Below, piece after piece: positions 15,202 through 52,114 of a DNA stretch of 54,103 nt. Under the pieces are notes generated by a model. It did no database searches and was not told where the DNA came from. It worked only from the letters and a program-made list of their open reading frames with translations. How positions within the stretch are numbered: position 1 is the first letter of the stretch; the number at the start of each line of letters is the position of its first letter. The translations under genes and the position numbers were made by a program. The DNA lies in the NCBI GenBank assembly GCA_017609985.1, contig JAFCCW010000014.1, forward strand, positions 1 through 54,103. The letters run 5' to 3'. Origin of the DNA: Candidatus Iainarchaeum sp. (GTDB taxonomy: Archaea > Iainarchaeota > Iainarchaeia > Iainarchaeales > JAFCCW01).

Positions 15202-17527
15202 TTACCTCAAAAATGCGCTTGCAGTAACACCAGCATCCCATGAAAGCCTTGGCCTGATTTTTATCATCCAAATTTTTTCTGTGTTGTCATCTATTACTAG
15301 CGCGAATCCTTTTGCTCTTGGCATCTGCGCATAGTACTTGTCAAAATCTTGGTTCATGTAGCTTGGGCGTAGTGCAGCAACAGCTTCAATATCTGGCTTT
15401 GAAGTCATCCTGTGGCTAATGAATAAATCGCATTGGGATATTGCATCTGGGTGAAGCTTGTTTGGTCTCTGGGTTGCGAGAAGAAGGCTTAATCCTGGTT
15501 GTCTTCCAACTCTAACCCATTCCAAGAGAACCTGTAGTGCAATGCTTGGTCTGTCGTTTGGCATGAACATGTGTGCTTCGTCTATTAGCATCCAGATTAT
15601 TGGCATAGAACTTTCTTTCTTTTGTCCTTTGACAAGTTTCATTTCCTCTTCTTTTCTGTAAAGCATTCTTTCTTCAAAAAGCCTTTTGCCCAACATTGCG
15701 ACAATTATGTCTCTTGTTCCTTCCATTCCAATTGACTGTCTGTACGAGCTTACATCAATGACAGTTATTTTTCCTGGCTTTGCAATATCCATTATTTTTG
15801 TTCCTTTTTTTTCAATAAGCCCCCAGGTCTTTGCCATTTTCATTCTGCTGACCAAAGCCTGTCTGGTCAACTTTTCTGATTCAGTGTCCTGATTTATTAC
15901 TGAGATGATGTCGTCTATTCCATAGTATGTTCCCATTTTTTCTCTGACTGTTTCAATTACTCTTGAAATCAGAACTCCTTCTGCATCTTTCCAAGTGAGT
16001 GTAAATAGAGTCATCCATTCAACTGCGTCAAGCTCGCTTGCTTTGAGAGTGAATGAGCCATCTATTGGAACTTCTTTTTCTCTGTAAAATTCTTCTTTTC
16101 CTTTTGGAACAAGAACTCGTATGTCGGTAGCCTCTGGGTGCAGGCCCCATTCGGAGAGAATTTCTTCATTTTCCTTGTTTGGGATTTTGAGACTCCAAAA
16201 AATTCCAACAGTGTCAATTGTGATAACTGAAATTCTCTGCCTTACTTCTACTGGCAGACGGGCAAACTCTTCGAGAAAGACAGACATTGTGTAACTGTTG
16301 TGGATTATGATGTCGTTAGCAACAAAATTGTGTCCTTCCGGAACAGAAATATCAAATACTTTTGTTTTTTTGTTTATTTCTTCAATGCTTTTGATTTCAT
16401 CCCAATAAATATCTGACTCAGCAAGCAATTGGACAAGCTCGTTTTCATCAGCAATAGCTATTTGCAATAGCTTGTTTCTGCTTGGAGAATATTTTGTGCT
16501 TTCCCTTAATGCTTTTGGGTGTTTGTAGCCTATTTTTCTTCCAATTTTTGCCCAGTTTTCAGGAGTATATTGGTTCCAAAGTTCTTTTGGTATTGTATCG
16601 TAGTTCGGGTTAAATTTTCTTTCTGCAAAATCTCTTTGTGCGATTTTTTGAATTTTTTCTTTTTCTCCAAAGAATCCGATTTTGTCTAAAAATTCTTTAC
16701 AGAAAAATCCTTCAATTGTGATTTCAAATGATTCAAATTTCTTGCCTTCTAAAAAGATTGTTTTTTTTCTTAGTGTAGATATGATTCCAAATTTTAGGAG
16801 AAGATGCTGGACTTGTTTTATCAATTTTTCAGAGCTTGAACAATATCCTATTCTGGTTCTATTTCCTTCCCTCCGGATTGTTCCATCGCAAGAAAACAAG
16901 CGGTTTAAGAACAATGCAGTTTTTTGTTCAGTTAGGGAAAAAACTTTTACGGGAATTGTTTTTTCGATTGCTTTAAAACCGTATGCTCCAACTGAAATAA
17001 GCCATTCTCTTAAATAGTTCTTTTTTTCCATCTGAATTCCTTTTGCGAATTTTCCATTGCCTCTGGATTCCGCAATTATTTTTGTTTTTTTATTTGGATT
17101 GATTACTCTGAATTGTCCTTCTTGATTTTTCATTTTCTTAACTTCAAGTCTCTTGTCAAAATCTTCTACTGATTTGCGAAAATCTTTTTGGATTTTTTCA
17201 TCAAAATTTGTGAACAAAACTGCTCTGGAAATAGTGTGTCCTTCAGCAATGAGAAATGCTAGAAGTTTTACTTGGCTCTCACTCATAAATTCATTTCCAA
17301 AAAAACCAATCTTTCTTGGCGTTGCAATTCTCGAGCCGGTTTGTAGTTCACTTGCTGGTTTCCATCCTTCAATTGTGAGCAAAGGGTGTTCAGGAGTAAG
17401 TTTTATTTCTTTTCCAGTTCTTGTAGTTAGTTTTAGTATCTTGTTAACTTCTCGTGTAAAGAATTCTTGTTTTTTTGTAGAACTTAATTTGAAGTCTTCG
17501 CCGAGGGAAATTATCTTTTTTGAATTG
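15202..17527 (-). CDS. HerA-like ATPase, intein-interrupted, N-terminus missing
   Basis: The 364 C-terminal residues are a HerA/DUF87-type hexameric DNA-translocating ATPase: a helix following the P-loop (SYTMSVFLEEFARLP), Walker B-like WMLIDEAHMFMP, an arginine/sensor region LLATQRPNKLHP and the end GFALVIDDNTEKIWMI. The Walker A motif itself is incomplete: only its Ser (GK|S) remains, immediately after an intein. The open frame starts after a TAA near 17530 and has no ATG before the intein; the first possible start is TTG at 17382, inside the intein. The N-terminal HAS-barrel and GxxGxGK are not encoded upstream. Either a rearrangement or frameshift has truncated it, the assembly is wrong, or the N-extein is encoded elsewhere (split intein). 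Confidence 0.85.
16297..17527 (-). mobile_element. intein with LAGLIDADG endonuclease in Walker A of HerA-like ATPase
   Basis: Intein blocks in order: block B KLTPEHPLLTIEGWK, LAGLIDADG helix 1 LLAFLIAEGH, helix 2 LNRLFSCDGT, then block F VFDISVPEGHNFVAND and block G ending HN before Ser+1 of the C-extein. Splicing would join ...GK to SYTM, rebuilding the P-loop. About 410 residues remain. Block A (the nucleophilic Cys/Ser followed by a GDT-like stretch) is absent: the frame begins roughly 25 residues after where it should be. C-terminal splicing residues (penultimate His, Asn) are intact. Confidence 0.85.
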
Positions 17528-34082: not shown

Positions 34083-34105
34083 GGAAGCTGAATCAATCAG
34101 CTTCC
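34083..34105 (-). terminator. terminator of the H1-like coiled-coil gene
   Basis: Minus-strand hairpin GGAAGCTG-ATTGATT-CAGCTTCC overlapping the end of the coding region, followed by TTGAATTCTATTTTTTAAG. Confidence 0.65.
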
Positions 34106-35743
34106 CTTGTTTATTTCTGCTTCAATCATTTCTGGAGTCACTGCTTTGTGGTCTCTGAGCTTTACGAGAACAAAGTTGTATGCCTTTACTGTGTCTTCAA
34201 GGCTTAGCTTTCTTTTGAATCCAATTCTTGCAACTTCGCTGAAGTAGGTGTTCACGATGTTGTGAGCCAGCTGTTCTCTTGGCAATCCCTCGCCTGCAGG
34301 CATTTCTTCAATCTTTTCGTTGAGGCTCCTGATTTCTCTCTTGAGCTGTTCCAACTCGCTGATTGTTTCCTGCTCTGCTTCTTCAACTTCTTTCTCAAGC
34401 TCTTCTGTTTTCATTTTTTCAAGATCTGAATCGCCTGATTCAATCTCCACTGAAGTGATGCTATTTCTGATTGCATCCATTTCTTTGGAGAAGTCTTCCT
34501 TGATTTTTTGAACTTCTTTGGCCAGCTCTTCTCTGTATTCTGTTGGGCTTGCAGTTTTTGCTATTTCAATTTCTGCACCCATCTTGAGCATTTTTTCGTT
34601 AAGGTTTCCCTTTAGGTCTTCAACAAGTCCTTTTATTTCGTTCATTCTTTTGTCAAGTTTCTCGTCCACAAGCTCTTCAATGTTTTCTGGTCTTGCAACC
34701 TGGTTAACTATGTTGCCAAGTTCTGCTGTCTCAGTTCTTGTCTGTTTAACTATTTCGCTGAGCTTGTTCATTTCTCCAAGAGCTTTTGTGGTTTTTTCAG
34801 TGCTTGTTTTTATTACATTCATGCTGTTTCCAATCGCGCCGATTTTGCTTGAAATTTCATTCAGTCTCTTTCCATATTCCTGCTCTGTCTGTTTCTGCAT
34901 TTTGTCGTGGTCTTCAAGTTTTTTTACAGCAGTTGTAACTGCTTTGTCAAAGCTTGAGAGTTGTTTTTCAAGCAGTTCTGATTTTTTGACTCCTGTTTCT
35001 ACTCCTGTCTTCATGCTGTTCACACTTCTCTGGATTGTGGAGAGCTTTGAGGAAACAGAGTTTACTTTGCCTGTATTGTTGTTAATCATTTTTCTAAGAG
35101 CGTCTGCTCTTCCTGTTTCTCCTTTCAAGCTTTTCTCCATTGCATTAACTGTTTTCTCAAGTGAAGAAACAGACTTGTCAATTCCGCTGATTTTTGTTAC
35201 CTGTGTTCTAAGCGGGGTTGCAAGATTTATGTAAGCAACTTTTTTGCTTTCAACTTTTTTCTTAACTGCTTTTTTAGCAGGGTTTTTCTTCTTAACTGCT
35301 TTTGCAACAGTTTTCTTTTTGATTGGGCTTGCCTTTTTCACAGCTGATTTTTTCTTTGCTGGTTTTTTTGCAACAGCCTTTTTCACTGCTTTTTTTGCAG
35401 TTCCTGCTCCGCTCACGTTCACATTAACTTCAACCTTGCTAACGCCTGCTTTCTTCACTGCTGGCGTTTTATTAACTGCGGCTTTTTTGGCAGTTGTTTT
35501 CTTTTTCCCAGCTGGTTTTTTTGCAACAGCCTTCTTTTTAATTGGGGCTTTTTTAGAAACAGTTTTCTTCACAACAGTTTTCTTTACTGCTGGCTTTTTC
35601 TTAACAGCCTTTTTCACAGCAGACTTTTTGCCTGATTCCTTTTTTGATTTATCATTGATCGTAACATTTACTTTCTTTCCGCCCTTTACAGTGATTGTTT
35701 CATTCCCACTTTTAACAGTAACAACATCTTTTGCTTTTGCCAT
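34097..35743 (-). CDS. histone H1-like (KKA-rich) coiled-coil protein
   Basis: 548 residues. Residues 1-35 form a beta-rich head (VVTVKSGNETITVKGGKKVN). About 35-185 is Lys/Ala/Pro repeat, in KKAVKKKPAVKKT- and AKKPAKKKSAVKK-like units, as in histone H1 tails and bacterial AlgP/HU tails. The rest to about 480 is coiled coil (KSVSSLEKTVNAMEKSLKGE and similar). A folded end closes it (GLPREQLAHNIVNTYFSEVA, then EDTVKAYNFVLVKL). It probably binds DNA or polyphosphate by the tail and multimerises by the rod. ATG at 35743 with GGGGG ribosome site. No similarity to its neighbours. Confidence 0.75.
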   Translation of the reverse strand: MAKAKDVVTVKSGNETITVKGGKKVNVTINDKSKKESGKKSAVKKAVKKKPAVKKTVVKKTVSKKAPIKKKAVAKKPAGKKKTTAKKAAVNKTPAVKKAGVSKVEVNVNVSGAGTAKKAVKKAVAKKPAKKKSAVKKASPIKKKTVAKAVKKKNPAKKAVKKKVESKKVAYINLATPLRTQVTKISGIDKSVSSLEKTVNAMEKSLKGETGRADALRKMINNNTGKVNSVSSKLSTIQRSVNSMKTGVETGVKKSELLEKQLSSFDKAVTTAVKKLEDHDKMQKQTEQEYGKRLNEISSKIGAIGNSMNVIKTSTEKTTKALGEMNKLSEIVKQTRTETAELGNIVNQVARPENIEELVDEKLDKRMNEIKGLVEDLKGNLNEKMLKMGAEIEIAKTASPTEYREELAKEVQKIKEDFSKEMDAIRNSITSVEIESGDSDLEKMKTEELEKEVEEAEQETISELEQLKREIRSLNEKIEEMPAGEGLPREQLAHNIVNTYFSEVARIGFKRKLSLEDTVKAYNFVLVKLRDHKAVTPEMIEAEINKGS

Positions 35744-35824
35744 AAAAAACCCCCTAACTGCGCATTGCACTTTATATACTTGCACTCAAACTAATATTTA
35801 AACCTTTTCACTGTGTTTAGTTAA

Positions 35825-39123: not shown

Positions 39124-42100
39124 TTGAATAAAAAACCTTGCGCTCTTAAAGTACTTGCTCTAATTTTTATATTTTATATCTTATTTTTCTCTTTTCCCTC
39201 TGCTTTTGCACCAGGCAGTGGTGCTCATGCGGGTCTTGGCAGTGGTGCTCATGCGGGTCTTGGTGGTGGCGCTCCTGCAGGAGGGGGAACTAGCACAACT
39301 GTTACTCCTTCTACAACAGCCACTCCTCCAACTACGACTGTTTCTCCATCCAGCGGAGGCGATTGCTATACGTCTACAGCCCCAAGAAAAACAACAGGCG
39401 CGCGAAGAACTTCAAGAACTACTTACGGTGGTGCCTGTGCTTACATTCCAAACTTTTCTTTTGACATCTCTCTTTCCTGCGAGCAGGTTTCCGGAAAGCA
39501 GGCTGTTTCCGCTAAAGCAACTGTTTCCAACATAAAGGACTCAAGGGCTTTGAACTCTGCAAAAATGTGGCTTTGGGAAGGAACTAAATCTGTTAACACA
39601 AAGTATGTTGCAGAGCAGGCTGGAGAAATTGATGGTTTTTCTTATTCAAAAATAAAGTCTTTTGTTGAGTTCAGGGGAGACAATTCTCAAAGACGCCTTG
39701 TCTGGATTTCTTATTACAACGCGGATGAGTCTTCTGCAAAGCGTTATCTGATTGACGGTGGAAACCTTGAAGACACTCCTGGCGACTACACACATGATGG
39801 TCCGCTTTACTATGTTCTTGACGGCGGTAAGAAACAAATTTCAAACACTTCCTTGAAGACAACTCTTGACGCAGACTATCTTGCAACAAGAAACTCGGAG
39901 AAAACAGAGGAAGACATTGCCTGTGTCTGCGTTTCAGGAGACAACTATGATGCTGTGAAGCAAGGCACTGTTTTCTTTGGCGGAACAGTCAAGGACAATT
40001 CTTTTGGTTCAACTGCTTCTTTCAATGAATGGAAAGTTTTTGATGTCAAGCCTGCGGCAAATCCTTCAGATATTTTCCTTTCAGAGGGCGAGCACTGCCT
40101 GTGCGCTCGATTGTTAAGTTCTAAATCTTCTGCAGTCAAGAAAAACATTGCTTCTGCTATCTGCACTGTTGGAAAAGCAGAGTCTGTTGATTCGCCTCCT
40201 GCAAGATGTGTTGATTGCACTCCTGATGACAAGGGCAATGTTCCGGCAGAATGCACTGAAGAAGACAAAAAACCAGATATGACTGGTGACGAAACTGGCA
40301 CAGAGGCCTGCAAACCAGATGGCTCTGGTTTGGTTCCTGCAACATGCGCCGATCCTGACCTTTTTGGAACTGGAATCTGTGTTAATGTAAGTCCTGTTTC
40401 TCTTGCAAGAGAAATCTTGCTTTCAGACCCTTACACTTCAAGCGTTACAATTCCACTGCCTTTTGCAGTCATTGACGTTGGGTCTTATCAAGAAGTTTCT
40501 GACAAAACACCAGATGAATACGCTGAACTGATTAAGGAAAAGAATTCTGATTTAGCCAAATTTGTTGATTTCAAGGTTGAGGAAAATCCTGAAACAAATT
40601 ATTCTCTTGAATTAACAATTTCTCTCAAAGAGGATGTTGACTGGTCTCTGATTTCAAGCGCAGTGAAAAAGTTTGAAGGAGAACTATTAATTGAATACGG
40701 TGCTTTCGGCGGAGACCTTTACGTTGAAGAAAACGAAGAAGGAATTCTTTCTCCAAGGGAATCAATTCCAATAAAGATTTACAATGAAAAAGGAGTTCTT
40801 GTCGTCTGGAAGGATTCTGCTATTTCCGGGAAAGTAATTGCTCTTGCAGGCAAGTCAGACGGCTGGGATTCACTTGTTGTAAATCACAGTGAAGAAAGAG
40901 GCTCTGAAGCTCGCTCTATTGAGCTTTACTCTGCTTTAGCAGAAAAGTGGGATGAAAGTCCGTTTTCTTATGTTGCGCTTGTTTATTCTCCTGAAGAACA
41001 GGCGGAAAAATTTCCTTTTTCTCGTTCAAACAACTCTTCTCTTGATGTTTTCCTAAGCCAGGCAAGCAATGGAGAAATAGGAATAGCTGTTTCACGCCTT
41101 CCAGTCTCATCTGAAGACGAGCTTGAAAGATTGTTCACAGATCACAATCAGAAAAGAAAAAATAAGGATCTTCTTTTTACTGTGGGAGTTACTAACAAGT
41201 TTTCCACAAAATACGAATTTTATAATTCCATCAGTAAAAAGGTTTCAGAGAAAGATTGGAGTGATGCAGAAGAAATATCAGGCTATGAGGAGAAACAGGT
41301 TTTGTCAAAAAAGTTTGATGAAATAGTTGCCAATTCTGAGCTTGAAGCAGTTAAGGGCATCAAGTCTCTTGTTGAAGAAGGCAAGTCTCCAGCGGGAATG
41401 GATTATGTTCTTGTAAGAGCCGGTACTTATTCAGGAGATTCAAATAATTATCTGACTTATTATTCTGTTGAAGATTATTCCAATGCAAGCTTTGAGCAGT
41501 CTGAGCGATATCTTCTTTCAGGAGAAAAGATTACAAAGCAGTTGGCTGACTTCGAGGGTTTAATAAAAAGAGATGCTGTGTCCACAGCACAGTATTCTAA
41601 AAATGAGAAGTTTAAGAACATGTTTAACATTAGTTTGCTTTATCCTGATTCAACCGGAGTAATGGCTGACTTTGCTTCACAAGGAATAAAGCTTTCAGAC
41701 GGAGATTACTACACAAAAGATGATATTCCTGATAATAATGTGGATGAAGATATTGAAGCAATTTCTTTAGAATTCAAATTTGGTCTTCCAGCCAGACCAA
41801 TCATTGTCCTTGACGCCTGCCCGCAGGACAATGCTCTTCCGCAAGCATTTGTGGAAAGAGGCGCAAGTGCTGTAATAGCCTATTACAATTCTGATGAATT
41901 TGTTCCAAGAGAAGATAATTTTCTTGACGTTGATGAAGTCTCTGTTGGTTACTCAGTCATTGAATACAACAGAAATGCTGGTGACTCTGAAGACAAGCTT
42001 GTTATCTATGGCTTTCCTGATGTTCTCTGGGAAGGTGGCAGAGATACGGGTTATGTTTCGGAAAGTGGTTCTGAAACATCATCTGGAGATATGAGTTCGA

Positions 42101-43017
42101 AGGCTGACGAGCCAGAGAAAGCTCCTGAAGACTATGAAACACAGTTTGATTTGGTTGATGCAGGTCCTGGCTATGTGACTCTTGGAAGCGCAGAGCTTGA
42201 TAATAAAAAAGATTGGGTTGAAGCTAGCGGTTCTGTTTCGCTGCCGAAAACTGGTGAAGACCCTGGAAAGATTACTCCTGATTTGTTTGCTGCTTATCTT
42301 CTTGATGAAGCTGGAACTAGACAGCCGGTGGATGCAAAAATTGTTGTTGAAAAAGATGAGGGGAATGAAAATGAGTTTAAGTTTACTTTAAGTGTTCCAA
42401 GTTTCAGTGGATTGTCTGAATCTATTTCTGCTGCACTAAAGCGCTTGAGAGCCGGCGACAAAGCAGCTACTCCTGAGCTTGTTGTTGAAGTTGAAACAGA
42501 GCAGGGAACTCTTTCAGCAAAGAGAGTCATTGTTGCAAACACTCAGGAAGTTTTTAAGGGAATAAAAAGTCTTACCAATAATTTCAGTGAAATCCTTGCG
42601 GGAATTGTTTTCAAGCCAGAGGCAGAGCAGTTCCTCAACCCTGATGAACTGATTCAGCAGGTTGGAACCTCTTATCAGGTTTTGAAGAATCCAAAAGCTG
42701 GCGACAAATTCAATGCTTTTGAAACAGTTATTAAGGGCAGGAAAATCACTGCAATGGTTCAGTCTGTTACTGGAAACGGAACAATCACTCTTGCACTCCA
42801 GCTTGGTAATGACCAAAAGCTTGCTGTTCTTGCTCCTTCAAACAATCGCACAAGAGTTGATTTTGGAATGCAGGGAAACAATGCTGTGAGAGCAAGTCCA
42901 AAATGTTATGGTGGTGTATCCTTCAGGCTTGAGGGAAACGATCTCAAAGCAATATATATAAAGCCTTTAACCAGCTGGACAAAGAAGTGTGCTACTTTTG
43001 AAGCAATGCAGGAATAG
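39124..43017 (+). CDS. giant secreted protein with C25 (gingipain)-like segment
   Basis: 1297 residues. TTG start at 39124 is backed by the ribosome site GGGGAGGA. Order: signal peptide (about 1-33, ending FPSAFA), a Gly/Ala/Ser-rich linker with two exact GSGAHAGL repeats, a Cys-containing beta-rich region (to about 430), a linker (CVDCTPDDKG), then a domain at about 440-960 shared with the protein at 48580. Within it IAVSRLPVSSEDELERLF, VLDACPQDNALPQAFVERGA and VIYGFPDVLW follow the order of C25 caspase-like peptidases, with the Cys in place but no GHG-like catalytic His upstream. So probably a non-enzymatic scaffold. The last 300 residues add beta domains. Function unknown. Confidence 0.75.
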   Translation: MNKKPCALKVLALIFIFYILFFSFPSAFAPGSGAHAGLGSGAHAGLGGGAPAGGGTSTTVTPSTTATPPTTTVSPSSGGDCYTSTAPRKTTGARRTSRTTYGGACAYIPNFSFDISLSCEQVSGKQAVSAKATVSNIKDSRALNSAKMWLWEGTKSVNTKYVAEQAGEIDGFSYSKIKSFVEFRGDNSQRRLVWISYYNADESSAKRYLIDGGNLEDTPGDYTHDGPLYYVLDGGKKQISNTSLKTTLDADYLATRNSEKTEEDIACVCVSGDNYDAVKQGTVFFGGTVKDNSFGSTASFNEWKVFDVKPAANPSDIFLSEGEHCLCARLLSSKSSAVKKNIASAICTVGKAESVDSPPARCVDCTPDDKGNVPAECTEEDKKPDMTGDETGTEACKPDGSGLVPATCADPDLFGTGICVNVSPVSLAREILLSDPYTSSVTIPLPFAVIDVGSYQEVSDKTPDEYAELIKEKNSDLAKFVDFKVEENPETNYSLELTISLKEDVDWSLISSAVKKFEGELLIEYGAFGGDLYVEENEEGILSPRESIPIKIYNEKGVLVVWKDSAISGKVIALAGKSDGWDSLVVNHSEERGSEARSIELYSALAEKWDESPFSYVALVYSPEEQAEKFPFSRSNNSSLDVFLSQASNGEIGIAVSRLPVSSEDELERLFTDHNQKRKNKDLLFTVGVTNKFSTKYEFYNSISKKVSEKDWSDAEEISGYEEKQVLSKKFDEIVANSELEAVKGIKSLVEEGKSPAGMDYVLVRAGTYSGDSNNYLTYYSVEDYSNASFEQSERYLLSGEKITKQLADFEGLIKRDAVSTAQYSKNEKFKNMFNISLLYPDSTGVMADFASQGIKLSDGDYYTKDDIPDNNVDEDIEAISLEFKFGLPARPIIVLDACPQDNALPQAFVERGASAVIAYYNSDEFVPREDNFLDVDEVSVGYSVIEYNRNAGDSEDKLVIYGFPDVLWEGGRDTGYVSESGSETSSGDMSSKADEPEKAPEDYETQFDLVDAGPGYVTLGSAELDNKKDWVEASGSVSLPKTGEDPGKITPDLFAAYLLDEAGTRQPVDAKIVVEKDEGNENEFKFTLSVPSFSGLSESISAALKRLRAGDKAATPELVVEVETEQGTLSAKRVIVANTQEVFKGIKSLTNNFSEILAGIVFKPEAEQFLNPDELIQQVGTSYQVLKNPKAGDKFNAFETVIKGRKITAMVQSVTGNGTITLALQLGNDQKLAVLAPSNNRTRVDFGMQGNNAVRASPKCYGGVSFRLEGNDLKAIYIKPLTSWTKKCATFEAMQE
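39214..39261 (+). repeat. 24-bp tandem repeat (two copies)
   Basis: Two exact copies of a 24-bp unit (39214-39237, 39238-39261) encode GSGAHAGL twice, followed by a third, decayed copy (GGGAPAGG). A slippage-prone N-terminal linker just after the signal peptide. Confidence 0.85.
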
Positions 43018-46664: not shown

Positions 46665-46800
46665 TAAACCACCTTTACCTAATAGCACTAAAAAGGTTTT
46701 AAATCAAACCAATTCTGAGGAAGCAAACGATTATAAATAATGAAATAATAAGTCTTAATGAAATTAGTTAAACAATTAAACAAGGTTAAAAGGTGATAAA

Positions 46801-47607
46801 ATGCCCCCTGCAAGAAAGCCAGGACAACCCAAAAAAAGAAAATCTCTTCCACAGTATTCAATTCCCGCAACTTATCGTGCTCCTGGTGTGGAAAAACTCG
46901 CACAGGAAGAAACAGCAAGAATGAATGATTATCTTAAAAAAGTAAAACAAAGTAATCGAAAGAGTGAACTTAGAAAGCTTTGGTCTCAGCCATGGTTTCA
47001 TCAACTTCCTGTAACTCATGAAAGAAGGGATTTTTGGGCAAAAGAGGTTTCAGCAGGAAGGGCAAAAGTTGTCAAAAGGTCTGATGGGCATTTTACTATT
47101 GTAAGAACAGCTACTGCGGGGAAGGAATTGCACAAAAGCCCTGAATCAGGCTCAACAAAGAAAAAAACTTCTGCAAAAAAAACAACCAAAAAATCAAGTT
47201 CTTCGACTTCAAAAAATACTAATTCAAGAACTTCACCAGCCAGCAGAAGTTCCACAAAAAACTCTGTTGCCGAACCAGTTTCTCCAAGCTCAGCAGTTGT
47301 TGATATGTCTGGAGCAAGAATAGGCTCTGCTACTTCAACAGGAGTAAATGTTGACCAAGGCCATATTGGAACAGGAAACATATCCAACAGGGCTGAGGGC
47401 GGTGTTGGCGGAACCGCAAATGTTTACATGAGTGATCGTGCTTTTGAACAGAGAAGGGAAGAGCAAGCAAGAGATGCGCGAGCTCGTGAAGAACCTGAAG
47501 AACGCGATTGGGAAGAGGAACCTGAAGTCCAGGAACAGCCAGAGCAGAGAAGGGACACTGGCAGACGATGGTATAATCCGTTAACTTGGTTCAGAAGGCG
47601 AAGATAG
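46801..47607 (+). CDS. basic protein with 45-residue glycine-rich module (paralogue of next gene)
   Basis: 268 residues, no signal peptide. A basic N-terminal region (KPGQPKKRKSLPQYSIPATY) leads to a helical segment, a Lys/Ser/Thr-rich linker (KKKTSAKKTTKKSSSSTSKN), then a 45-residue module (about 167-212) shared with the next gene (30 of 45 identical by eye): VDMSGARIGSATSTGVN, GHIGTGNISN, GGVGGTANV. A charged Arg/Glu region and an aromatic-basic end (WYNPLTWFRRRR) close it. Ribosome site AAAGGTGA. The next gene follows after 12 bases. Not a known family. Confidence 0.75.
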   Translation: MPPARKPGQPKKRKSLPQYSIPATYRAPGVEKLAQEETARMNDYLKKVKQSNRKSELRKLWSQPWFHQLPVTHERRDFWAKEVSAGRAKVVKRSDGHFTIVRTATAGKELHKSPESGSTKKKTSAKKTTKKSSSSTSKNTNSRTSPASRSSTKNSVAEPVSPSSAVVDMSGARIGSATSTGVNVDQGHIGTGNISNRAEGGVGGTANVYMSDRAFEQRREEQARDARAREEPEERDWEEEPEVQEQPEQRRDTGRRWYNPLTWFRRRR

Positions 47608-47619
47608 TAAGGTGATTAA

Positions 47620-48528
47620 ATGCCGGCACCCAAGAGACCAACTCGCAGGGCTGCTTCGACTGCAAGAAGAACTGCCCGTAGTAATGCTTCTGGAAACACA
47701 AATCCAACACATTCTGGCGCAAGCGTTAACATGTCCAACGCCGAGATTGGCAGGGCAAGTGCTACTGGTGTCAATGTTAGAAACGGTCATATTGGAACAG
47801 GCGACATAAGCAATGTTGCTCACGGTGGCGCAGGTGGAAATGCAAATGTTCACATAAGCGGAATACAAGGAACTGCTGGTCGAGACGGAAGAGATGGTTC
47901 TCCTGGCAGGGAAGGTCCTGCTGGTAGAGATGGCACTCCTGGAGAACGTGGTGTTCCTGGCGAGAAGGGAGATCCTGGTGAGAGAGGAGAACCTGGCACT
48001 CCTGGTGAGAGAGGCGAGCCTGGCACTCCTGGTGAGAGAGGAGAACCTGGCGAGCGCGGTGAAACAGGTCCTGCTGGAGCTGTCACACGAGTTGAACCGG
48101 AAATGTCTGACTGGTATAATACCCAGTCTTCTTCTTTGAGAATGGCTAGGGACAGATCTAGACAGCGCGTTAGATACTTTGAATCCAGAGCTGCAACTGG
48201 TTCAAACAGGCTTGGTCGCTGGTGGGCGAACAGAAAGGCTGTTCAAGAGAGAAGAAGATATGATTCGATTAACTTTCGTTTAAGAGAATTAAGAACTGCT
48301 CAGTCTGGTGGAATGCCACGCGATTACATGAGACGTGAAAGAAGCAGATGGTGGAATCTCTGGCGCGGAGACTATGGAACTTTCAGGCAGAGGCAGATTT
48401 CCAGGCGACTTTATGGTTCGTCTTCACGAGACTTTTCAACTGGGGCAAGAAGATACAGGCGTCCTGAAGCTTCAGGTTTTTCTTCAACTGCTTCAAGACA
48501 GCGGGAACCAGCTGAGCAGGAAGCATAA
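47620..48528 (+). CDS. collagen-like protein with shared glycine-rich module
   Basis: 302 residues, no signal peptide. Basic N-terminus ([20 protein letters not shown]), the 45-residue module at about 35-80 ([37 protein letters not shown]), then 25 uninterrupted Gly-X-Y collagen triplets (about 81-155; typical ones [15 protein letters not shown]). The C-terminal 145 residues are basic, aromatic and Arg-rich ([33 protein letters not shown]). Arg in Y and Pro in X positions are the triplets that stabilise collagen helices without hydroxyproline. The module may act as a trimerising cap. Ribosome site GGTGAT. Confidence 0.85.
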
Positions 48529-48579: not shown

Positions 48580-51531
48580 ATGAAAATTGGCATGGATTCT
48601 GTTCTCAAATATGCAACTGCCTTGTTTTTTATAGGAGTTATTCTTGTTGCTCTTGGAGTAATAAAACTTCCTGGTGAAGACAAGTTTCAGGGAGTTCCAG
48701 TTCCTCCTCCGGAACAAGCTGCTCAGGATTTTCAACAGTCTTCTGAAAACATTGCAAACATTGTAAATTTGTGCAAGGGTTATTCTCCCTCTGAATTCCA
48801 ACAGCTTGTTTCTGAACGCCTTCTTAATATTGCAAAAAAGCAGTTTGATGAAACAGGCCAAATCCCTTATTTTTCAATTGAGGACATTGATCAGATTGTA
48901 ATTGAATTGTGCGGTGTTCCATTAACTGATAAGCAGAAAGAAGAGCTAAAGTTTAACCTTGAAAAGCTCAATCTTGATATCAGAAACCTGATTCTTTCCA
49001 ATGCTGTGGAGTGCACTAGTGACGAAGACTGTAAAGAAGGAGAAGTTTGTAAAGAATTCAAATGTGTTTCCAGCGAGCAAGAAATTCAGCCGCCAGTAGT
49101 AATTCCTGAAATTGAAACAACTTTAATCAAGCCATTGGTTTTCTCCGATCCAAAAAAATCTTTTGCAGAGCTTACTCTCCCATGGGCTGTTATTCCAGTT
49201 GACAAATCAAAACTTGAAGAGCCTGAAAAATATTCTGTTGAAAACTTTAGTTTTTCTTTGATAAATAATTCAGGTTATGAAATAGGTTTTGATAATTTTT
49301 TCATTGCTGAAATTCCTGAAAGCGAAAAAGTCATTGAAGATGGAAAGCTTGTTGAAAGACCAAAGCTGAGGCTGAAGCTGAACATTGAAGACAAGTCAAT
49401 GTGGCGAACTTTTGCTTCTGGCGGACCTAGAATTGATGCAGAGATTGTTGTTAAATACAATCCAGAGCTTTTTTCTGAAGCCCAGCCATATCTTGACAAA
49501 CTTGTTAAAGACTTTTCAATCCCTGTTACAATTTACAACGAGTACGGTGTCATTGTCTTTGCAAAAAAGTTAAGAGAAACCAAGACAGGAACTGTTTCAG
49601 AGATTGAAACAATAACTGAACGCTCTGAAGCTTGGGATTATCTTGAAGTGGAAGACCCTGCTGATATTCAGACTCTCAAATATTATCTTGATCAAATTTA
49701 CACTATTGACAACACAAGTCTTGAAAATATTCCGACAAGCAGAGAATCCGGCCATATGTTTTCTTACCTTGTTCTTGTCTATAACGAGTCTGTTCCCGAC
49801 ACAGTTTTTCCAACTAAGCTAAGCAACTGGGAGCCAGAACAGGCTTCTGGTTATATGCTTGCTAACTTCAAGGGAACTGATGATGTGCTTAGCAGGATAG
49901 GTTCTTCAAGCAATGATGTTTCAACAAATGTTGCTGTTTCCCGTCTGCCGGTAAAGAAGTTGAACGATGTTGCAGAAGCGTTCTATGGGAAGACACAAGA
50001 CAGTGATGGCAAGACAGCTATTTTTTCTTCACAGGTTTACGAGTCAATGGGTGGAGTAGAAAAGCTTGCTGATGTTTACGGCTTGCTTTCTCCTGAAGCT
50101 GTTTCCTATGACACTGCGAGGATGACTGAAGCTGCAGTGGAAGAGTATGCTCCTTTCAAAGCGTTTATGATTGCAGGAAATTGTGATTCAAAAGGAATTG
50201 CTTTTGAAGACTCAAAGGGCACTCTTAATTATTATTCTGCAGAAGATGTTCCTGACCTGTCTGAAAAACAGTCTTCAAAATCGGAAGAGATTGATGTTAC
50301 TGAATGTTTTAATTCTGGAGATGAATTGTTTTTAAGAATTTCAAATCCTGTGATTAGTGGCTGGTCAAAAGAATCTGACGGCACAAAAAGCATGCCTGGC
50401 GGAGAACTTCCTTCAGTTATTTTTGCTCCTGACAGAAAGGTTTTCTTTGAACAGGGTTCTGCTGTACTATGGTGTGGTAAAGGCCCTGTTAAGATTTTGC
50501 CAAAAATTCGTGCTCTGAATTTTTACAAGCTTGTTCCAGAAAAGCTTGTTAGTTCTGGAGACGAATTGATTTACAAGTTCAGCAAGCCAGAGACTCTTGA
50601 AGCTGAAAAAATTGTTGTTAATGCAGAGCATATTGCAGATTCTTTTTCTCCGATTGTTTTGCTTGACGCCTGCCCGCAATCAGCGGGTATCGCGAAACAG
50701 TTTTCTATCAACGGTGCTGCTTCAGTTATTCAGTTTTCTGACAAAAACAAGTTTGCTCCAAGAACATCTGGTTATCTTTCTTCAAAGGAATTAAGCGTTG
50801 GTCACTCTGTAATTGAATTCAATGCAAGAAACACAACCGAGTTTTTGACGCTCTATGGCTTTCCAGATACTTGGTGGAGTGCTCTTGGCAGTTCAGACAA
50901 GCCTGCTGAAGCAAGTGTTTATGTAAACTATGAACAACAGCAGGCTGAAAACCCATATTATGCTGTCCTGAGTGTTGTTCCAGTTAAGGATGGAGAAGAG
51001 CTTGATTATGATGACTATCTTCCTGTCTCAGAACTTGATGAGAGTGTTGGTGTTATCTCTCAAAAAGCTTATGATAGTGCTCTTTCTTTGAGAATGAGTG
51101 CAAGAATCATGAAAAAGATTGAAGGCGGGGAAGATGTTGATGTCACTGGTAAAGTAAAAGACATAAAGTGGAGATGGTATTTTGCTTCATGGAAGTCAGA
51201 GAATGCAGAGCCAGAAGTATTGATTCAAAAACTTTCAGAATACGGTGCCTCAGTAGGAAGGGAATGGCATCTGTCAGTAACCGCGGACTTCAAGGATGAA
51301 AAAGGAGTTGCTTCTGCTCAGGACACTGAATCTTATTGCCTGCTTTCATGCGGCCCAGATCCAACAGTTTATCTGCGGATTTTTCAGAAGCCAGCTGGGA
51401 ATCCAGTGCTGATTGAAGACAAGGATGTTACTCTGTCAATGTGGGTAAAACTCTTTGACAGAAAAGATGGAAACTCAAACATGGCTTGGGAAAACAATTC
51501 CTCACTGCACTATAGATGTAAAAACTCTTGA
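48580..51531 (+). CDS. giant membrane-anchored protein, paralogue of 39124-43017 (frameshifted)
   Basis: 983 residues before a stop. One N-terminal membrane helix (YATALFFIGVILVALGVI) anchors the long outside part. CTSDEDCKEGEVCKEFKC is a Cys-rich knot; then, as in the protein at 39124, a domain starting SDPKKSFAELTLPWAVIPVD, IPVTIYNEYGVIVFAK, AVSRLPVKKLNDVAEAF, VLLDACPQSAGIAKQF and LYGFPDTWWSAL (C25-like order). A C-terminal beta module repeats. The frame ends abruptly at 51531, while the repeated module continues in the +1 frame (51455-52114), so a frameshift lies near 51480-51510. TATA-like TTTATATATTAG lies at 48533-48544. Confidence 0.75.
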   Translation: MKIGMDSVLKYATALFFIGVILVALGVIKLPGEDKFQGVPVPPPEQAAQDFQQSSENIANIVNLCKGYSPSEFQQLVSERLLNIAKKQFDETGQIPYFSIEDIDQIVIELCGVPLTDKQKEELKFNLEKLNLDIRNLILSNAVECTSDEDCKEGEVCKEFKCVSSEQEIQPPVVIPEIETTLIKPLVFSDPKKSFAELTLPWAVIPVDKSKLEEPEKYSVENFSFSLINNSGYEIGFDNFFIAEIPESEKVIEDGKLVERPKLRLKLNIEDKSMWRTFASGGPRIDAEIVVKYNPELFSEAQPYLDKLVKDFSIPVTIYNEYGVIVFAKKLRETKTGTVSEIETITERSEAWDYLEVEDPADIQTLKYYLDQIYTIDNTSLENIPTSRESGHMFSYLVLVYNESVPDTVFPTKLSNWEPEQASGYMLANFKGTDDVLSRIGSSSNDVSTNVAVSRLPVKKLNDVAEAFYGKTQDSDGKTAIFSSQVYESMGGVEKLADVYGLLSPEAVSYDTARMTEAAVEEYAPFKAFMIAGNCDSKGIAFEDSKGTLNYYSAEDVPDLSEKQSSKSEEIDVTECFNSGDELFLRISNPVISGWSKESDGTKSMPGGELPSVIFAPDRKVFFEQGSAVLWCGKGPVKILPKIRALNFYKLVPEKLVSSGDELIYKFSKPETLEAEKIVVNAEHIADSFSPIVLLDACPQSAGIAKQFSINGAASVIQFSDKNKFAPRTSGYLSSKELSVGHSVIEFNARNTTEFLTLYGFPDTWWSALGSSDKPAEASVYVNYEQQQAENPYYAVLSVVPVKDGEELDYDDYLPVSELDESVGVISQKAYDSALSLRMSARIMKKIEGGEDVDVTGKVKDIKWRWYFASWKSENAEPEVLIQKLSEYGASVGREWHLSVTADFKDEKGVASAQDTESYCLLSCGPDPTVYLRIFQKPAGNPVLIEDKDVTLSMWVKLFDRKDGNSNMAWENNSSLHYRCKNS

Positions 51532-52114
51532 AGAGTATTATCTCATGGATGAAGATGTTGCCTGGACAATCTATTCTTATCTTGCCTACGAGGGCACAAG
51601 CAAGGTTGCCTACAAAAGGCTCTGTAATGAGTCCTGCGGAGAATACGGCGACTATTTTTACACTTATGACTTAAAGGTCAACGAAACAGATTATCCTGAA
51701 GAAGAAGCAATAGTTCTCTCTAACGAAGGCAAGCTTGAAATAGAACCGGAGATTTTGGGAATGACTGATTCTGAAACAGACGGAGAAGACATCAAAGAGT
51801 TTGAGCTTGAAAAACTGCCAACTCCAATTAGGTGGTATTTCTATATTGATGGATTGCCTTACTTTGAGAAAGCTGTTGTGCAGGGAAGAAAAATTCCTTC
51901 TGGTTGCACTGCTGAGGTTGACAAAAAAGGAAACTTCACTGGCAATGGTGTTCCAATCTGTTCCTTTGAAGTCAGCGACCTGATTAACAAGCATAAGATG
52001 AAGGAAGGCAAGAAGTACAGGTTAAGGTCTTACGCAATCTTTGAGACAGTTGGACTCTCTTATCAGACAACGCTCTGCCTTGACCACTGTCCTGGTGAAA
52101 ACACGGAAGAATAA
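51455..52114 (+). CDS. continuation of the giant protein in the +1 frame
   Basis: 219 codons whose content continues the C-terminal module of the 48580 protein: 'CTIDV...IYSYLAYEGTSK...LCNESC' then 'GCTAEVDKKGNFTGNGV', 'CSFEVSDLINKHK', 'SYAIFETVGLSYQ' and 'CLDHC'. Both units have the same order (Cys, strand, aromatic, Cys pair) as the last unit of the upstream frame. There is no credible start or ribosome site; the ATG at 51455 is inside the other frame. It is a separate gene only if the frameshift is real and the protein is now two parts. Confidence 0.7.
   Translation: MTEKMETQTWLGKTIPHCTIDVKTLEEYYLMDEDVAWTIYSYLAYEGTSKVAYKRLCNESCGEYGDYFYTYDLKVNETDYPEEEAIVLSNEGKLEIEPEILGMTDSETDGEDIKEFELEKLPTPIRWYFYIDGLPYFEKAVVQGRKIPSGCTAEVDKKGNFTGNGVPICSFEVSDLINKHKMKEGKKYRLRSYAIFETVGLSYQTTLCLDHCPGENTEE

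Follow-up and report, generated by a model that had tools for sequence, protein, structure and literature searches.

Two adjacent genes of an archaeal genome encode basic proteins, here called P1 and P2, that share a 50-residue module, and in P2 this module runs directly into a collagen-like rod. We tentatively read P1 and P2 as a two-gene, cytosolic, self-assembling structural pair in which the module would act as the assembly cap. The new elements are the unclassified module and the partner that shares it, not the status of P2 as an archaeal or signal-less collagen.

Results

Two adjacent genes encode basic proteins

The P1 gene lies at 46801-47607 on the forward strand of the window (the whole stretch of DNA analysed, 54,103 nucleotides) and encodes a protein of 268 residues (pI 10.4, net charge +22). 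The P2 gene follows on the same strand at 47620-48528, after a gap of 12 bp, and encodes 302 residues (pI 11.4, net charge +21); the coordinates given for both genes in the first-pass annotation were exact. The same ribosome-binding sequence, AAGGTGAT, was read on the forward strand 3 bases 5′ of each ATG, at 46790-46797 for P1 and 47609-47616 for P2. A TATA-box-like element, TTATAAATA, read at 46731-46739 on the same strand, ~60 bp 5′ of the P1 start, is the likely promoter of the two genes, judged by the archaeal promoter consensus. Because the gene at 48580 has a separate A+T-rich upstream region of its own, we infer that P1 and P2 form a two-gene unit. A family scan identified the neighbours of the pair as an XPD-like helicase and a thioredoxin-reductase-type flavoprotein, and the window also encodes ribosomal protein L15e, a TCP-1-type thermosome, and a tRNA-intron endonuclease, which fits an archaeal host.

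Other features of the window were noted by inspection. Two large proteins on either side of the region (39124-43017 and 48580-51531) contain segments that resemble each other and include a DAC motif (VLDACPQ... and VLLDACPQ...); by eye, they are possibly gingipain- or caspase-like, and no Pfam family matched them. The second, of 983 residues, appears by eye to start with a hydrophobic segment, and a 219-residue open reading frame at 51455-52114 seems to continue it in another frame (overlap ~51455-51531), suggesting a frameshift or a sequencing error. On the reverse strand, the product of 34097-35785 starts with a long, Lys/Ala-rich (KKAVKK...) stretch resembling histone H1 and continues as a coiled-coil-like protein, and intein- or LAGLIDADG-like segments (homing-endonuclease-like motifs) were seen by eye at 15202-17382 and 58-1200, the former with a splice-junction-like ...IIHNS.

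P1 comprises an N-terminal region, a Lys/Ser-rich linker, the module, a predicted charged helix, and an Arg/Trp tail, while P2 comprises an Arg-rich N-terminus, the module, the collagen-like rod, and a helical, Arg-rich C-terminal region. Neither contains Cys. The earlier description of both as basic and devoid of a signal peptide agrees with their pI and charge and with the lack of any signal peptide, transmembrane segment, or hydrophobic stretch in either (best 19-residue Kyte-Doolittle mean of 0.56 for P1 and 0.14 for P2). Their ends had also been called Arg-rich, which holds for the end of P1 (RRRR) and for the N-terminus and C-terminal third of P2 but not for the last residues of P2 (REPAEQEA). 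With no secretion signal in their sequences, both proteins would be cytosolic. P1 matched no family in Pfam, PHROG, NCBIfam, or PADLOC, and its Arg/Trp tail occurs on no other protein of the genome. A second common Arg/Trp motif at the two C-termini was considered and dropped, the local alignment being no better than that of shuffled sequences (p 0.63).

AlphaFold2 models, run on two-sequence alignments, had low overall confidence (mean pLDDT 49 and 51). The exception was a helical hairpin predicted at residues 160-228 of P2 (pLDDT ~76-92), within a C-terminal region predicted to be helical over residues 160-264 (48097-48411, forward strand). A Foldseek search of the P2 model against the PDB returned generic two-helix hairpins only (best E 0.057, EncB; none below 0.05), and the helical amphipathicity of the P2 C-terminus did not exceed that of shuffled sequence. 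The low-confidence P1 model places helices and a beta hairpin before the Lys/Ser-rich linker, and in it the module is immediately followed by the charged helix. Neither profile nor PDB matches supported another reading that was considered, a YadA-head-like or left-handed beta-helix.

P1 and P2 share an old and constrained module

The module occupies residues 163-212 of P1 (47287-47436) and 32-81 of P2 (47713-47862), both on the forward strand. The two copies align without gaps and are identical at 32 of 50 positions, where 20,000 shuffles gave a maximum of 17/50. The 30 of 45 identities counted by hand in the first-pass annotation are found in the central 45 residues. Essentially all the signal of the P1-P2 BLASTP match (E=2e-17) comes from the module, and alignment of the flanks outside it detected no significant similarity. 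Between the copies, dN is 0.39 and dS is 1.47 (NG86) or 1.92 (LWL85), a dN/dS of ~0.2-0.26, and identical codons are used at 16 of the 32 identical residues, against 12.7 expected under independent codon draws. These values show that the likeness is not due to chance: with dS near saturation (1.5-1.9) and a dN of 0.39, the duplication is old and the module has been kept at the protein level. In both proteins, an extended element directly follows the module, the collagen rod in P2 and possibly a helix in P1. An internal repeat of the module with a period of 15 or 11 was not significant (p ~0.28).

These data bear on the possibility that P1 is no partner but arose by tandem duplication and diverged until only the module was left, the two proteins acting independently. 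That the module alone is common to both, between dissimilar flanks and with no further copy in the genome, would fit such an origin; however, the module is constrained in both proteins, and the genes are still adjacent with identical translation signals, making this explanation rather improbable.

The module had been described as novel, and it was indeed an orphan in every collection searched, where only chance matches were found. The window's own genome holds two copies, those of P1 and P2. The module had no Pfam match at E<=5, no significant PHROG match, and no match by sequence in the PDB, and whole-protein scans of P1 and P2 with NCBIfam and PADLOC gave no family covering it. It was absent from phage records, plasmid records gave one weak chance match, and a pattern scan covering IMG/VR and 84,980 prokaryote species, each represented by one genome, returned chance matches only. 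A profile search of 87 genomes of its own phylum and 457 of two other archaeal phyla recovered only the own-genome copies. Searches with full-length P1 and with a module profile in prokaryote genome contigs and viral contigs gave no accepted relative, nor did the degenerate pattern GHIGTG[DN]IS, searched at the DNA level in viral contigs, reveal a true one; the P2 C-terminus had no relative in viral contigs or in its own phylum. Three kinds of matches were discarded: an unrelated 668-residue protein of a Bacteroides MAG (L005) that has only GHIGTGDIS in common; a match (L026) inside a 102-residue frame overlapped by a longer opposite-strand open reading frame, taken as chance; and weak own-phylum matches to the P1 N-terminus (E 0.003-0.35), mostly short or reading through stops. 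As the closest genomes searched are no nearer to the window's genome than its order, blanks in distant genomes are weak evidence, and the lack of relatives partly reflects sampling; it also means that conservation of P1-P2 as a unit cannot be shown.

BASS motifs were found through just such an arrangement, a short Gly/Asn-rich motif common to adjacent genes, and some archaea have BASS3-like motifs (PMC7889193, PMC8086366). P1 and P2 might thus be an amyloid-type signalling pair, with the module as a RHIM/BASS-like motif templating between the two proteins, an idea that the low-confidence beta segments of the AlphaFold2 models would accommodate. Yet we consider it very unlikely: neither protein has an NLR, Bell, TIR, or CHAT domain; the module has 50 residues, more than the 20-40 given for BASS, and it adjoins a collagen rod rather than an effector; and the Pfam library that it failed to match includes the HET-S, NACHT_sigma, and Ses_B models. 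The [IV]-Q-[IV]-G core is likewise absent, and the slight RHIM resemblance, offered earlier as a speculation, found no backing.

P2 contains a genuine collagen-like rod

The rod begins without a linker, right after the last conserved position of the module, and consists of exactly 25 consecutive Gly-X-Y triplets (residues 81-155; 47860-48084, forward strand), the number reported previously. These unbroken triplets place P2 in the Pfam Collagen family (PF01391; E=1.7e-12, 47.4 bits against a curated cut-off of 27.2). Pro (9) and Arg (5) fill 14 of the 25 Y positions, and KGD and RGE charge pairs are present. Pro and Arg at the Y position stabilise triple helices without hydroxyproline, and the sequence of the rod is compatible with a triple helix. 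Tandem Repeats Finder detected a 27-bp unit at 47973-48051 on the forward strand, and the Gly residues of the rod are encoded by three codons (GGT, GGA, and GGC), which suggests that the rod grew by repeat expansion and then drifted at synonymous sites.

PHROG tail-fibre families also matched P2 (best 9.3e-15), and Gly-X-Y repeats are frequent in phage fibres, as would be expected if the pair, a collagen-like tail-fibre or virion protein with its partner, had been left behind by an archaeal virus or mobile element. Those matches, however, stem from the collagen part: the module, the P2 C-terminus, and the P1 N-terminus alone gave nothing significant. Moreover, no relative was present in IMG/VR or in phage records, and no viral gene was recognised beside the pair, whose neighbours are the helicase and flavoprotein named above. 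A viral or mobile origin therefore seems improbable.

Collagen-like proteins with no visible signal peptide recur in another archaeal phylum

Fourteen archaeal collagen sequences had already been counted in Pfam in 2015 (PMC4565658), and transcriptomes and a proteome have also shown collagen-like proteins of archaea (PMC5069720, PMC13037477). In the phylum of the window's genome, collagens are rare: 2 of 87 genomes had matches, and the one besides P2 is a lipoprotein-like protein (L008). They are also rare in a second archaeal phylum, with matches in 5 of 296 genomes; four of these loci (L030-L032 and L034) have, ahead of the rod, a signal or anchor segment that is strongly hydrophobic, and the fifth (L033) looks to be of low complexity. 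One of the four (L030, G523 C11) is a membrane-anchored protein with 78 Gly-X-Y triplets that are Thr/Ala-rich and nearly proline-free.

In a third archaeal phylum, 81 of 398 genomes matched. Most of the best loci (L040-L067; G089, G550, and relatives), from genomes that are probably Nitrosopumilaceae, encode proteins of ~430-660 residues whose conserved N-terminal domain (SGVYEVQI...) is free of strongly hydrophobic segments; they contain up to 163 triplets, show no visible signal peptide, and close with a conserved C-terminus (...EEQIKLMSYLY). Neither terminal domain matched a Pfam family at E<=5. The first-pass annotation had held collagen-like proteins to be rare in archaea and non-secreted ones rarer still, and these counts argue against it: with 81 of 398 genomes matching and most best loci showing no visible signal, non-secreted archaeal collagens are not very rare. 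Archaeal collagen is better viewed as widespread and often apparently intracellular.

The survey also bears on whether P1 and P2 could be a cell-surface pair, exported without a recognisable signal and with the adhesin function of other prokaryotic collagens. Most of the prokaryotic collagens studied so far are surface proteins, the other collagen of the phylum is lipoprotein-like, and the product of 48580-51531, downstream of the pair, has the N-terminal hydrophobic segment mentioned above. Nevertheless, neither P1 nor P2 has any hydrophobic segment, strongly basic arms are unusual for export, and most collagens of their own and one other phylum carry a clear signal or anchor segment that P2 lacks. 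Export of the pair thus appears unlikely.

Discussion

The tentative reading of P1 and P2 as a cytosolic structural pair draws together several features: the module abuts the first triplet; its copies are 32/50 identical despite near-saturated synonymous sites; the genes are adjacent, with matching ribosome-binding sites; no hydrophobic segment is present; P2 has a rod of 25 unbroken triplets and a predicted helical hairpin; and many genomes of another archaeal phylum encode proteins of similar layout. P2 would form a collagen-like homotrimer, the module acting as an N-terminal trimerisation cap that gathers three chains in register. The 25 triplets would then fold into a short, stiff rod of ~20 nm, at 0.29 nm per residue, with the helical, Arg-rich region at its opposite end. 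P1, whose body differs, would use its own copy of the module to join P2 trimers or to compete with them by module-module contact. The arms rich in Arg and Lys (both termini of P1 and both ends of P2) probably bind an acidic partner, for which their charge makes nucleic acid a candidate. In this way we infer trimerisation, contact between P1 and P2, a binding partner, and a cellular role.

The role given to the module follows from analogy. In prokaryotic collagens of the streptococcal type, the N-terminal V domain nucleates trimerisation (PMC8968730), and the phage-fibre domains PfC and PCoil were shown by light scattering to be trimeric (PMC3368898). As these domains trimerise and flank Gly-X-Y rods, it is plausible that the module, as suggested in the first-pass annotation, trimerises and caps the helix, and its most likely function would be to nucleate and register the P2 triple helix. 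No predicted fold backs a cap, as the pLDDT over the module is ~34-44 in both the P1 and P2 models. A bolder proposal, which we hold unlikely, is that the module is a new assembly fold of one archaeal lineage that nucleates an intracellular triple helix and co-assembles a non-collagenous protein into a previously undescribed, two-part cytosolic collagen scaffold. Should the module indeed nucleate cytosolic triple helices, it would offer a compact new trimerisation tag, and a minimal archaeon would be seen to build stiff intracellular rods without proline hydroxylation.

Compared with known systems, P2 resembles streptococcal Scl1/Scl2 and the phage and prophage EPcl proteins in having a non-collagenous domain directly before the Gly-X-Y rod. 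The NCBIfam Scl models match this rod (E ~1e-12), although P2, at 46 bits, falls far short of their full cut-offs of 325-400 bits, and the whole-protein models of the Scl/Lcl surface adhesins together give 32-46 bits against cut-offs of 325-500. Unlike Scl1/Scl2, P2 has neither a signal peptide nor an LPXTG anchor and ends in an Arg-rich helical region, and the module is unrelated to any detectable V, PfC, or PCoil domain. With BASS1-10 and RHIM, P1 and P2 have in common a short Gly-rich motif carried by adjacent gene products, but their module is longer, linked to collagen, and without an NLR/Bell partner or a motif-family match in Pfam. Finally, P2 is like the proteins of the third phylum (L040-L067) in being archaeal, with no visible signal peptide and with an N-terminal domain, a Gly-X-Y rod, and a C-terminal helix-like segment, but it has 25 triplets where they mostly have 65-163, and its N-terminal domain and C-terminus are unrelated to theirs.
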